Origin: Marinomonas arctica
Lineage (GTDB): Bacteria > Pseudomonadota > Gammaproteobacteria > Pseudomonadales > Marinomonadaceae
DNA: 64,000 nucleotides
Direction of reading: 5' to 3'
Assembly (NCBI RefSeq): GCF_003259225.1
Contig: NZ_QHJF01000005.1
Location: 1-64,000 of the forward strand
In this document: positions 1-4,038 of the stretch, one piece after another
Layout: each line of letters starts with the position of its first letter
Numbering within the stretch: the first letter of the stretch is position 1
Program-made: the position numbers and the translations under genes
Notes under the pieces: model-generated
What the model was told of the DNA's origin: nothing
The model's database searches: none
Seen by the model: the letters and a program-made list of their open reading frames with translations, nothing else

Positions 1-66
1 GATGATCTTCTGAAGCCTCCAGCGAGCGCCCACACAAATTATCTGATTATCTATTTTAAAGAGCGT
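1..66 (-). other. rRNA operon leader with boxA (16S gene lies off the left edge)
   Basis: Read on the minus strand, this stretch has a GCTCTTTAAAA boxA-type antitermination element (plus positions 54-64). It is followed by the AATTTGTGTGGGCGCTC-like segment that precedes 16S rRNA genes in gammaproteobacteria. No mature rRNA sequence is reached before the edge. The assignment rests on the match to the known E. coli-type rrn leader and on the promoter just upstream. A 16S-23S spacer also carries boxA, but it would not normally have a strong promoter at this distance. Confidence 0.72.
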
Positions 67-69
67 CAC

Positions 70-86
70 CGCACACATTGTGCGGC
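70..86 (-). other. Hairpin in the rRNA leader
   Basis: CCGCAC and GTGCGG arms enclose a 5-nt loop between the rrn promoter and boxA. Leader hairpins upstream of boxA (boxB-like) are usual in rrn operons. The role here is inferred from position only. Confidence 0.5.
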
Positions 87-94
87 TGAGGTCG

Positions 95-130
95 TGTATA
101 ATACAGACTATTTATATCTATGCAACCACT
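95..130 (-). promoter_or_regulatory. Likely rrn promoter
   Basis: On the minus strand, TTGCAT and TATTAT are separated by about 16-17 nt, and transcription would run directly into the boxA leader. T-rich sequence lies upstream, as in the UP-element region of rRNA promoters. No start site can be measured from sequence. Confidence 0.55.
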
Positions 131-156
131 TTGCAAACAAAAAAACACTACGAAAA

Positions 157-195
157 CAAAAAAGTCACTGCGCCGATCAACGCAGTGACTTTTTT
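157..195 (-). terminator. Terminator after the fumarase gene
   Basis: A perfect 12-bp stem (161-172 with 181-192) with an 8-nt loop is flanked by A and T runs on both sides. It therefore works for the fumarase transcript and separates it from the rrn promoter immediately downstream. Confidence 0.85.
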
Positions 196-227
196 AAAAC
201 TTTTAATATAGCCTTTTTTAAAATCGA

Positions 228-1745
228 CTATTTTATTTCGAGCGCTTGCGCTTCAATTTTCGCTTTCCATTCAGCAGGCCCAGTAATATGCACAGACGTC
301 CCCATGGTATCTACCGCCACAGTGACTGGCATATCGACAACATCAAATTCGTAGATAGCCTCCATCCCTAATTCCGGAAAGGCCACCACGTCTGCTTTTT
401 TGATCGCCTTAGATACCAAATAAGCCGCGCCACCAACAGCCATAAGGTAGACAGCGCCAAACTCTTTAATCGCCTCAATGGCTACAGGACCACGCTCAGA
501 CTTACCAATCATGCCAAGCAAGCCCGTTTTATCCAAAATGGTGCGAGTAAACTTATCCATGCGAGTCGCCGTCGTTGGACCAGCAGGACCTACCGCCTCA
601 TCCCTTACTGGATCAACAGGACCTACGTAGTAGATGAAACGCCCTTTAAGATCAACAGGAAGCTCTTCGCCGTTGGCCATCATCTCAACCATTTTCTTAT
701 GCGCGGCATCACGACCCGTCAGCATTTTGCCATTTAACAAAATCGTTTCGCCAGGCTGCCATTCCTTAACCTGCTCCGGTGTAATGGTATTCAAATCTAC
801 TCGACGAACACTCTCACCGACCTCCCAAGTAATTTCTGGCCAATCATCCAATGACGGTGGAACTAAATCTGCAGGACCAGAACCATCAAGCACAAAATGC
901 GCATGACGAGTAGCGGCACAGTTTGGAATCATAGCAACAGGTAAAGAAGCGGCATGCGTTGGATAATCCATGATTTTCACATCAAGAACCGTTGTCAAAC
1001 CACCGAGGCCTTGCGCACCGATACCTAAATTATTCACTGCATCAAAAATAGCCAGACGAAGCTCTTCAACACGAGTTTGAGGGCCACGAGCTTTCAATTC
1101 GTGGATATCGATTGGCTCCATCAAAGATTCTTTCGCCATCACCATGGCTTTCTCTGCTGTACCACCAATACCTATGCCAAGCATACCTGGAGGACACCAA
1201 CCCGCCCCCATAGTAGGAACTGTTTTCTTAACCCATTCAACGATATCATCAGAAGGGTTCAACATGGCCAGTTTGGATTTATTCTCAGAACCACCACCTT
1301 TAGCAGCGACGTGAACTTCAACCGTATCACCAGGCACGACCTCCATGTGAATCACAGCAGGCGTATTATCTTTGGTGTTTTTACGAGCGCCAGCAGGATC
1401 AGCGAGAATAGAAGCACGTAAGACGTTATCTGGATGAAGATAAGCACGGCGCACACCCTCATTAATCATATCAGTGACGCTTCTTGTGCTCTCCCATTGC
1501 ACATTCATTCCTATCTTAACAAATACAGTAACAATACCGGTATCCTGACAGATTGGACGCTTACCTTCTGCACACATACGAGAGTTAATAAGAATTTGTG
1601 CCATCGAATCCTTCGCAGCCTTACTTTCTTCTCGCTCGTAAGCTTCATGTACTGCTTTTACAAAATCCAAAGGGTGATAGTAAGAGATAAACTGCAACGC
1701 GTCTGCAACGCTATCAATCAGATCATCTTCTTTAATAATGCTCAT
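228..1745 (-). CDS. fumA: Fumarate hydratase, class I (4Fe-4S)
   Basis: Catalyses the reversible hydration of fumarate to malate in the TCA cycle, in the cytoplasm. The 505-residue length is that of the two-domain class I (FumA/FumB) iron-sulfur fumarases, not the class II FumC type. The N-terminal domain has the PICQDTG motif near residue 65. Further conserved cysteines lie in GWCPPG near 183 and MIPNCAA near 275; these three regions supply the ligands of the labile 4Fe-4S cluster. The C-terminal beta domain (about 320-500) carries GPTTATRMD. The gene stands alone and ends at a strong terminator just before the rrn promoter. Being Fe-S dependent it should be oxygen-sensitive. fumA and fumB cannot be told apart by sequence alone. 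Confidence 0.93.
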   Translation of the reverse strand: MSIIKEDDLIDSVADALQFISYYHPLDFVKAVHEAYEREESKAAKDSMAQILINSRMCAEGKRPICQDTGIVTVFVKIGMNVQWESTRSVTDMINEGVRRAYLHPDNVLRASILADPAGARKNTKDNTPAVIHMEVVPGDTVEVHVAAKGGGSENKSKLAMLNPSDDIVEWVKKTVPTMGAGWCPPGMLGIGIGGTAEKAMVMAKESLMEPIDIHELKARGPQTRVEELRLAIFDAVNNLGIGAQGLGGLTTVLDVKIMDYPTHAASLPVAMIPNCAATRHAHFVLDGSGPADLVPPSLDDWPEITWEVGESVRRVDLNTITPEQVKEWQPGETILLNGKMLTGRDAAHKKMVEMMANGEELPVDLKGRFIYYVGPVDPVRDEAVGPAGPTTATRMDKFTRTILDKTGLLGMIGKSERGPVAIEAIKEFGAVYLMAVGGAAYLVSKAIKKADVVAFPELGMEAIYEFDVVDMPVTVAVDTMGTSVHITGPAEWKAKIEAQALEIK

Positions 1746-1832
1746 GCTTCTCTCCTGCCGAGTCTCACGATTAAATCGAAAACGAAATGGTAAAAGATGC
1801 AGCCCTGCAAGGAAAGCATTAAGGTGGGTTTT

Positions 1833-1876
1833 AAAAAAATATACCCCTCATCAATCAAATGAATGAGGGGTATATA
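1833..1876 (-). terminator. Terminator of the DUF2786-repeat gene
   Basis: A 13-bp stem (1839-1851 with 1863-1875) with an 11-nt loop is followed on the minus strand by a run of seven T. It sits 34 bp past the stop codon at 1910. Confidence 0.85.
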
Positions 1877-1909
1877 GAGGAAAAATTTGGCGCACTACAC
1901 CTAAGATCA

Positions 1910-3532
1910 TTAACGGTTAGCTTTTTGCTCTCTATCCGACTTCGGTTTTTGTACCGAATGCTGAATGTACTCTTCTAAAATTTGAGCGGTAAACTTCTCA
2001 CGCTCCGGCAGGGAAGAAATTCTCTCAGCCTCCCAATTGATCAACCGAATAAAAACCGAATATTTTTTAATGAAGCCGTAACCGATATCCCTAACACCTA
2101 TGCCGTTAACCTCCATCAAGTAAGTCACTTGCTCTAGATTTTTCTGGGCTTCAAACTGCCCTCCTTCACTCGCAGCGATAAGCAAACGCTGAATATGCTG
2201 TATCGGGTTTTCAGATGTTCGCGACTCTTTTTTTGTCTGGCTAGACGTTAGGAATTTATCCAACATTTCTTCCGTATGCGCTTCCCTTGCATGCACATCC
2301 GCAATACTGGCTGATTCGCGCTCCAGCAATCGAATAAACAAACTCTTATTTTTGATATCTGAAAATTCTAAATCCTTAAGAGACAAGCCATTATTTGACA
2401 TAATATCAATGACTTTCTCGTATGATGCCGTTGCTTCTGCACCAACAGAGACAGCCAACACAAGATGCCGACGCAGCTCGTGCATAATTTTCGCCGCTCT
2501 ATAGTCCTCTTTACGCTGCAAATGCTGCCTAAAGGACTCTTTGTTTTTGGCTAAAGCATGACTAATAGCATCATACCCTTGAACAGCCTCTTGCTCTTCT
2601 TTCAAACGTTCCATACGAACTTTGGTGCAACTACTCTCCCAAGCCTCGTAAGATTTAGCTCTAGCTTGAAAAGCACGTTCAATAGCCTCTTCAAAACTCT
2701 GCTCAATACGAGCTCGCTCCGAGCGCTCCTGAACTTCATTTTGCTCATGCTCATAGCGTTTCTTTTTCTTGAGCTGCAAATTCTCTTGAGCCAGAAGAAG
2801 CTGCTGATTTAACGCCTCTATGTCCGCTTGAACCTTGATCTCATCAAAATCAACAAGCTTTTCATACACTTTAGACCAATAGCCATCCTCAACAAATGGC
2901 ACATTTGGGTTGCTGGTTGCATATTGCGTTTTAAGCGTTTCAGTAAACTCATACCCGTCGGGACGAAAAGCCTTTGCCGCGTTAATAACATTGTCACTGG
3001 ACGTATAAGTAGTTGAGCTATCTTGTCCCCCATCGTTCACAACAGACTGAGCTGCCATTTCCACACCTTCCAATATATTTTCCGGCACTACACCATCGAC
3101 ACTAAAACATTCGCTCTCAATTTCAACATCGTCAACGTCATCAGCATTAAATGAATCGCGAAGCATCTCTTCAGGCTCTTGGTAACCTGACAAGTCTATA
3201 TCGTCCAAAATAGTGCGAGCCGATTCATACGCCCTGCTAGCATCACTATTTTTTTCACTAAAACGCCGCTGATAAACCGAACCCTCAGAAGGCGACTTAA
3301 CCGTACTCTCTTTTTGATGGCGTGGCGCAGCCCCACCCCAACTCACACGATAAAGCATGGAACGGTCACACAACTGCAGAATAGGCAACTCTCTTTGAGC
3401 AACCTGATACTGCCTAATTAGCGACTCCGCATGACGCAAAGCCATAACAGATTCACTTGAATTAGTTGAAGTGGCTAAATTTAATAATTTAACCACTTTC
3501 TGTATGGCCTTCTTCCTTTTACTGATGCTCAT
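1910..3532 (-). CDS. Large DUF2786-repeat coiled-coil protein of unknown function
   Basis: Not a characterised gene. The N-terminus (about 8-50: KAIQKVVKLLNLA then ALRHAESLIRQYQ) matches the DUF2786 pattern, a small helical domain seen in phage and plasmid-associated proteins. An acidic, low-complexity stretch follows (about 70-220), then a long Glu/Lys/Gln-rich region (about 225-345) that should form a coiled coil. The C-terminal third holds two consecutive copies of one unit of about 75 residues (about 350-425 and 443-520). These share LL.A, a loop with a Gly, NGL/NGI, D.., and the identical FIRL block, and both resemble the N-terminal unit. No signal peptide or membrane segment is visible. 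The gene has its own terminator and is monocistronic. Function is open; binding to nucleic acid or a structural role are guesses. Confidence 0.75.
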   Translation of the reverse strand: MSISKRKKAIQKVVKLLNLATSTNSSESVMALRHAESLIRQYQVAQRELPILQLCDRSMLYRVSWGGAAPRHQKESTVKSPSEGSVYQRRFSEKNSDASRAYESARTILDDIDLSGYQEPEEMLRDSFNADDVDDVEIESECFSVDGVVPENILEGVEMAAQSVVNDGGQDSSTTYTSSDNVINAAKAFRPDGYEFTETLKTQYATSNPNVPFVEDGYWSKVYEKLVDFDEIKVQADIEALNQQLLLAQENLQLKKKKRYEHEQNEVQERSERARIEQSFEEAIERAFQARAKSYEAWESSCTKVRMERLKEEQEAVQGYDAISHALAKNKESFRQHLQRKEDYRAAKIMHELRRHLVLAVSVGAEATASYEKVIDIMSNNGLSLKDLEFSDIKNKSLFIRLLERESASIADVHAREAHTEEMLDKFLTSSQTKKESRTSENPIQHIQRLLIAASEGGQFEAQKNLEQVTYLMEVNGIGVRDIGYGFIKKYSVFIRLINWEAERISSLPEREKFTAQILEEYIQHSVQKPKSDREQKANR

Positions 3533-3594: not shown

Positions 3595-4038
3595 TCAGTA
3601 ATAGCGTTCTGCATCGTTGCTCGGCAACGTCAAATCATCACTCAACAACGAATAAACCTTTTGCAATATTTCAGCCAAGTCTTCCTTTCCATATGGAACA
3701 GCCGGCAATTTTCCCCAAACTGGTCCTGGCCAGCATGGATCTGCTTTATAACGTACAATATGATGCACATGCAGCTGTGGCACTTGGTTACCAATAGCGG
3801 CAATATTAAGCTTAGTGGCGGAAAAAGCATCGTGAAGCGTTTCCGCCAAAAGGCAACTTTCTGCCATCAATTGTTGACGATCTTCCTCTACCAGTTGATA
3901 TATTTCAGTAATATCATTTCTTTGAGGTACCAAAATAAACCAAGGAAACTGAGCATCATTAATGAGACGAAGCTGACACAGCGAAAAGTGCCCAACAAGA
4001 ATGGAATCACGACTCAATACTGGATCTAACTCAAACAT
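3595..4038 (-). CDS. HIT-domain protein
   Basis: Small histidine-triad hydrolase/transferase, probably acting on nucleotides such as dinucleoside polyphosphates or AMP conjugates; the substrate is not predictable. The signature is QLHVHHIVRY near residue 90, preceded by the typical SxxELTxxE-like helix. The Pro-rich segment after the triad (DPCWPGPVW) is characteristic of a gammaproteobacterial HIT subgroup of about 145 residues, so the protein looks full length. The start ATG has a GGAAG Shine-Dalgarno 9-10 nt upstream. It is divergent from the SMP-30 family gene, with about 85 bp between them. Confidence 0.85.
   Translation of the reverse strand: MFELDPVLSRDSILVGHFSLCQLRLINDAQFPWFILVPQRNDITEIYQLVEEDRQQLMAESCLLAETLHDAFSATKLNIAAIGNQVPQLHVHHIVRYKADPCWPGPVWGKLPAVPYGKEDLAEILQKVYSLLSDDLTLPSNDAERYY

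Follow-up and report, generated by a model that had tools for sequence, protein, structure and literature searches.

DUF2786 (PF10979) is a domain for which our literature search found no described function and for which a search by sequence found no solved protein structure. It occurs in many phages and in scattered bacteria, and many of the DUF2786 proteins that we have examined are phage or prophage-like. The three phage regions that were looked at have their DUF2786 genes among DNA genes; in Mu-like phages these are near mor, gemA (PF06252), PF11363 and transposition genes, and in phage DLP4 the gene lies between genes for a Cas4-like nuclease, a DNA-binding protein and a DNA polymerase. 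A prophage-like region from another genus of the order (L059, positions 63-3013), whose arrangement resembles that of phages of the B3/B23 type, has a DUF2786-DUF7168 gene beside frames that we take to be GemA-like and DUF3164-like. DUF7168 (PF23771) was present in five of the six ordinary DUF2786 proteins scanned, and it usually accompanies the single unit of the phage proteins of PHROG 421, which are about 230 aa long. A second close system is a set of DUF2786-DUF7168 proteins from another gammaproteobacterial family (f228; loci L079-L085).

The stretch of DNA analyzed here, hereafter the window, comprises 64,000 nucleotides from Marinomonas arctica, and it encodes a genus-restricted core protein in which the known DUF2786 domain is found in a new arrangement. 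The open reading frame that the earlier note had placed at 1910-3532 exists and its strand is corrected to minus, being read from an ATG at 3532 down to 1910 and yielding 540 aa. The features are as follows, with the basis of each assignment in brackets.

1910..3532, minus strand: gene for the 540-aa three-unit protein (open reading frame, relatives, dN/dS)
3383..3532, minus strand: N-terminal DUF2786 unit, residues 1-50, basic and the most conserved part (Pfam, phrog_421, pI, conservation)
2945..3328, minus strand: acidic, low-confidence (predicted disordered) spacer, residues 69-196 (pI, identity, pLDDT)
3251..3268, minus strand: conserved short motif RRFSEK in the spacer, residues 89-94 (family alignment)
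3200..3214, minus strand: conserved short motif TILDD in the spacer, residues 107-111 (family alignment)
2876..2995, minus strand: conserved stretch DNVI..AFRP...QY..S.P..PF..YW, residues 180-219 (family alignment)
2516..2842, minus strand: long charged helices, residues 231-280 and the start of 286-359 (AlphaFold2, heptad test)
2237..2515, minus strand: C1, first unit of the C-terminal pair, residues 340-432, a DUF2786-like hairpin followed by two helices (profile tests, predicted structure)
1937..2227, minus strand: C2, second unit of the C-terminal pair, residues 436-532, a DUF2786-like hairpin followed by two helices (profile tests, PHROG 421, predicted structure)
3595..4038, minus strand: HIT-domain protein, upstream neighbor (Pfam, synteny)
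228..1745, minus strand: class I fumarase, downstream neighbor (Pfam, synteny)

The likeness to the phage proteins of PF10979 and PHROG 421 lies in the N-terminal unit, which is a member by the Pfam cut-off, and in the C-terminal units, which share the hairpin region in register. The differences from PHROG 421 are these: the Marinomonas protein has three units in 540 aa and no DUF7168 was found in it, it adds long helices, an acidic spacer and two extra helices in each C-terminal unit, and it is the product of a core chromosomal gene rather than of a phage gene. With the proteins of L079-L085 it shares the recurrence of a DUF2786 gene across one genus, but these have a single unit and no tandem C-terminal pair, and DUF7168 follows DUF2786 in the one that was scanned.

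Pfam reports DUF2786 at residues 8-44 and nowhere else in the protein, with 28.4 bits against a gathering cut-off of 23.9, and phrog_421 matches the N-terminal unit with E 3.6e-10. The first 50 residues are almost unchanged between relatives in the dN/dS comparison. This end of the protein is strongly basic (pI 10.4 for residues 1-68), and the pI of the unit stays at 9.8-10.9 across the family whereas the C-terminal units are near neutral or acidic, which suggests that the copies are probably divided in role.

The tandem repeat that had been claimed for the C-terminal third is real, as shown by two comparisons of C1 with C2: hhalign, based on 36 aligned Marinomonas sequences, returns E 3.7e-15 with 33% identity over 67 columns, and the Smith-Waterman score of 114 (shuffle mean 25, z 19.6) is reached in none of 2000 shuffles. 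Among pooled C1 and C2 sequences 13 columns are identical throughout, and on these alignments the two units are homologous to each other. The earlier note had compared a C-terminal unit of about 75 residues with DUF2786; a shared hairpin is indeed present, but the common part is limited to the first ~50 residues of the ~75-95 in each unit. The remainder is made up of two extra helices after the hairpin (SLFIRLLERE..., REAHTEEMLDKFL...), for which no outside relative was found. Pfam gives no match of DUF7168 (PF23771) in the three-unit protein, and a DUF7168 hidden within the C-terminal units was considered and set aside, the profile alignment not extending confidently past the hairpin; as far as profile comparison goes, the two extra helices are not DUF7168.

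A relationship of the C-terminal units to DUF2786 is not evident from direct comparison. The N-terminal unit against C2 gives E 0.014, and by Smith-Waterman is no better than shuffles, so that this alignment was discarded as proof of homology and DUF2786 proteins from outside were needed. With a profile built from 20 DUF2786 proteins that come from genera other than Marinomonas we obtain E values of 9e-12 for the N-terminal unit, 1.4e-7 for C2, 3e-5 for C1 and 1.4e-8 for C1 and C2 merged, and nothing for the long helices and the linker or spacer; none of 200 column shuffles of the merged profile reaches the real score (maximum 17 against 45). PHROG 421 matches the C-terminal segment with E 2.9e-4, its best stretch being segment residues 106-156, and two stretches pass the search threshold; against single units its best value is 7e-5, with five of 16 members listed. 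The reverse test is in agreement: with an HMM made from the C-terminal units only, 20 of 21 DUF2786 ORFs give a match on or near the hairpin of the domain. This HMM lists all of the 20 outside proteins at the hairpin and in register; the top score is 26.7 bits, and 18 of the proteins exceed 6.2 bits, the highest value from 100 shuffled profiles. Finally, when the C-unit alignment was scanned against six frames of 398 whole genomes of the phylum, the matches outside Marinomonas came down to four places in three genomes, all of them DUF2786 genes.

One could argue that C1 and C2 are unrelated helical repeats whose likeness to DUF2786 reflects convergence of amphipathic helices, since the units stay below the Pfam DUF2786 gathering score (one of 16 unit sequences listed, best E 0.12) and the direct N-to-C comparison is not significant. 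The controlled profile tests in both directions and the exclusive recovery of DUF2786 genes in the genome scan favor homology, and we regard convergence as very improbable. No significant match of the C-terminal units to unrelated families was obtained. Judged by these profiles, then, the C-terminal units are diverged, extended and remote relatives of DUF2786 and not plain DUF2786 domains. The reading of the protein as carrying three DUF2786-like units, one N-terminal and the other two forming a C-terminal tandem, thus holds, and the resemblance of the first unit to both others, not established directly, does hold through the outside DUF2786 proteins.

The acidic spacer expected between the units is borne out by a pI of 4.1 and by low model confidence, pLDDT being below 50 at residues 48-109 and 111-202 in AlphaFold2, which was run on 12 sequences. 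Mean pairwise identity within the spacer is 35% (residues 69-180), and RRFSEK, TILDD and DNVI..YW are kept while the rest varies. Between spacer and C-terminal units lies a predicted long-helix region of about 110-130 residues, with helices 231-280 and 286-359 mostly at pLDDT 87-96 and lower around 271-290. These had been described as a long coiled coil; long helices are indeed predicted, but a canonical coiled coil is unproven, as the heptad periodicity (period 3.5) is not significant in the whole helices (p about 0.36 and 0.63) and has p about 0.07 in residues 286-340, for which a periodicity of 3.6 has p about 0.008. A helical hairpin is predicted in all three units: helices 3-20 and 25-42 in the N-terminal unit, the end of 286-359 followed by 365-380 in C1, and 443-456 and 459-476 in C2, with the further helices at 396-408 and 413-436 and at 491-502 and 508-526. 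Modeled alone, the C-terminal segment has a mean pLDDT of 81 and a pTM of 0.45. With the C-terminal and full models Foldseek gave no match that reached E 0.001, and weak, non-significant resemblances are mostly to generic helical-repeat proteins; the best VIA-align hit, to Scc2 with Z 7.2, was dismissed as background, Z≤7.2 being usual for helical models. Searches of NCBIfam and, by sequence, of the PDB gave nothing significant for the three-unit protein, and neither a signal peptide nor a membrane helix was seen by eye.

The gene was found in all 48 Marinomonas genomes searched and is absent from the other 141 of the 142 genera sampled in the order. Across 369 genomes of the class the C-terminal profile gave no convincing relative, a weak match in G438 being a repetitive 2070-aa frame judged to be chance, and nothing related to the whole protein turned up in phage and plasmid collections. 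Another long DUF2786 frame, at L090, looks similar but has a different architecture and was judged a frame overrun. Every named relative from a genome contig belongs to Marinomonas. Regarding selection, whole-gene dN/dS against five relatives is ~0.03-0.06, which indicates strong purifying selection; in the spacer it is ~0.14-0.20 where measurable, selection being stronger in the three units. Pairwise dS hinted at a special codon conservation near the 5' end, which a comparison of 12 species did not bear out. A second frame, 236-241 aa long and DUF2786-like at its N-terminus, is present in some Marinomonas genomes (G012:C20:614172-614327, G064:C21:14278-14442 and G067:C1:3079752-3079916), perhaps in prophages. 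In HIT regions from five outgroup genera, HIT adjoins proS in three and a DUF2786-like gene is absent, which agrees with the gene having been inserted in the ancestor of Marinomonas; the idea that it replaced an older gene behind HIT was considered and rejected, as the outgroups hold unrelated genes there and no similar protein. We infer that a DUF2786 protein, probably from a phage, gave rise to the gene in this ancestor and would have been recruited to a fixed chromosomal function; a module of phage type seems here to have become a core gene that defines the genus.

What has been computed is the homology of the units, the distribution, the selection and the predicted disorder. As to function, our main reading, to which we give a probability of roughly 30%, is that the protein could be a genus-specific tether or adaptor, in which nucleic-acid binding falls to the basic N-terminal unit, and self-binding or partner binding to the diverged tandem pair on its stalk. 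It is proposed because the N-terminal unit alone is strongly basic, because the three motifs are kept within an acidic spacer of low pLDDT, because a core gene is under purifying selection that is stronger in the units than in the spacer, and because phage DUF2786 genes sit among DNA genes. On the basis of charge and phage context the N-terminal unit would contact nucleic acid, the spacer motifs might serve as docking sites for a partner protein, and the stalk of helices that bears the tandem pair would either self-assemble or grip a second partner; a nucleic-acid target would thereby be kept at a set distance from a protein partner. Fold searches and the housekeeping neighbors lend this reading no support. 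We would then be dealing, tentatively, with a genus-wide and possibly essential Marinomonas protein in which a phage-type module has been triplicated into a two-ended tether. If true, the hairpin with its two added helices would count as a new, extended domain of DUF2786 type, and a family carried by phages would gain a new cellular role. A core copy with basic and neutral versions of the unit, in a culturable marine genus, also offers a route to finding the binding target of the module.

A rival reading is that the protein is purely a structural scaffold for protein-protein contacts, such as an organizer of the cell pole, of the envelope or of division, in which DUF2786 hairpins bind protein and the N-terminal unit contacts an acidic partner, the protein's own spacer or a membrane surface instead of nucleic acid. 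The predicted long helices with helical repeat units at both ends, the acidic spacer of pI 4.1 adjoining the basic unit and the generic helical-repeat character of the weak fold resemblances speak for this reading, which we consider about as likely as the tether, although those fold matches are not significant, no signal or membrane segment was seen by eye, and the phage DUF2786 genes examined lie in DNA-replication and transposition regions. The phage connection could instead mean that the protein is a domesticated phage regulator keeping its ancestral role, perhaps host takeover or its control, and acting against or alongside Mu-like phages in a defence-like or superinfection-control function; the many phage or prophage-like DUF2786 proteins and the second Marinomonas frame with the domain would fit. 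This we consider unlikely, given a gene present in every Marinomonas genome searched, at one fixed place where compared (proS, fumarase, and rRNA where checked) and not in a variable island, with no significant PADLOC match and an overall dN/dS that is very low, unlike that of many defence genes.

The synteny comparison across Marinomonas loci gives no functional hint, the neighbors being housekeeping genes: the class I fumarase is outside the system and the HIT-domain gene is not part of it. Beyond HIT lie a gene for an SMP-30-like protein and then one that we take from its sequence to be proS, and the order proS, SMP-30-like, HIT, three-unit gene, fumarase is kept in most of the loci compared. 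In Marinomonas sargassi and in genome G028 the HIT gene is absent at its place (L040 5614-6001 and L096 10734-11080) and the three-unit gene is retained. Most relatives have a TauE/SafE-like gene between the CysB-like regulator and DAHP synthase genes; it was not found in L036, L038 and L039. Several draft contigs, that of the window included, stop ~2 kb downstream of the three-unit gene (window 1-200; L094 2601-9888; L095 7943-14810), probably because rRNA genes come next after fumarase, as they do in both finished genomes checked.
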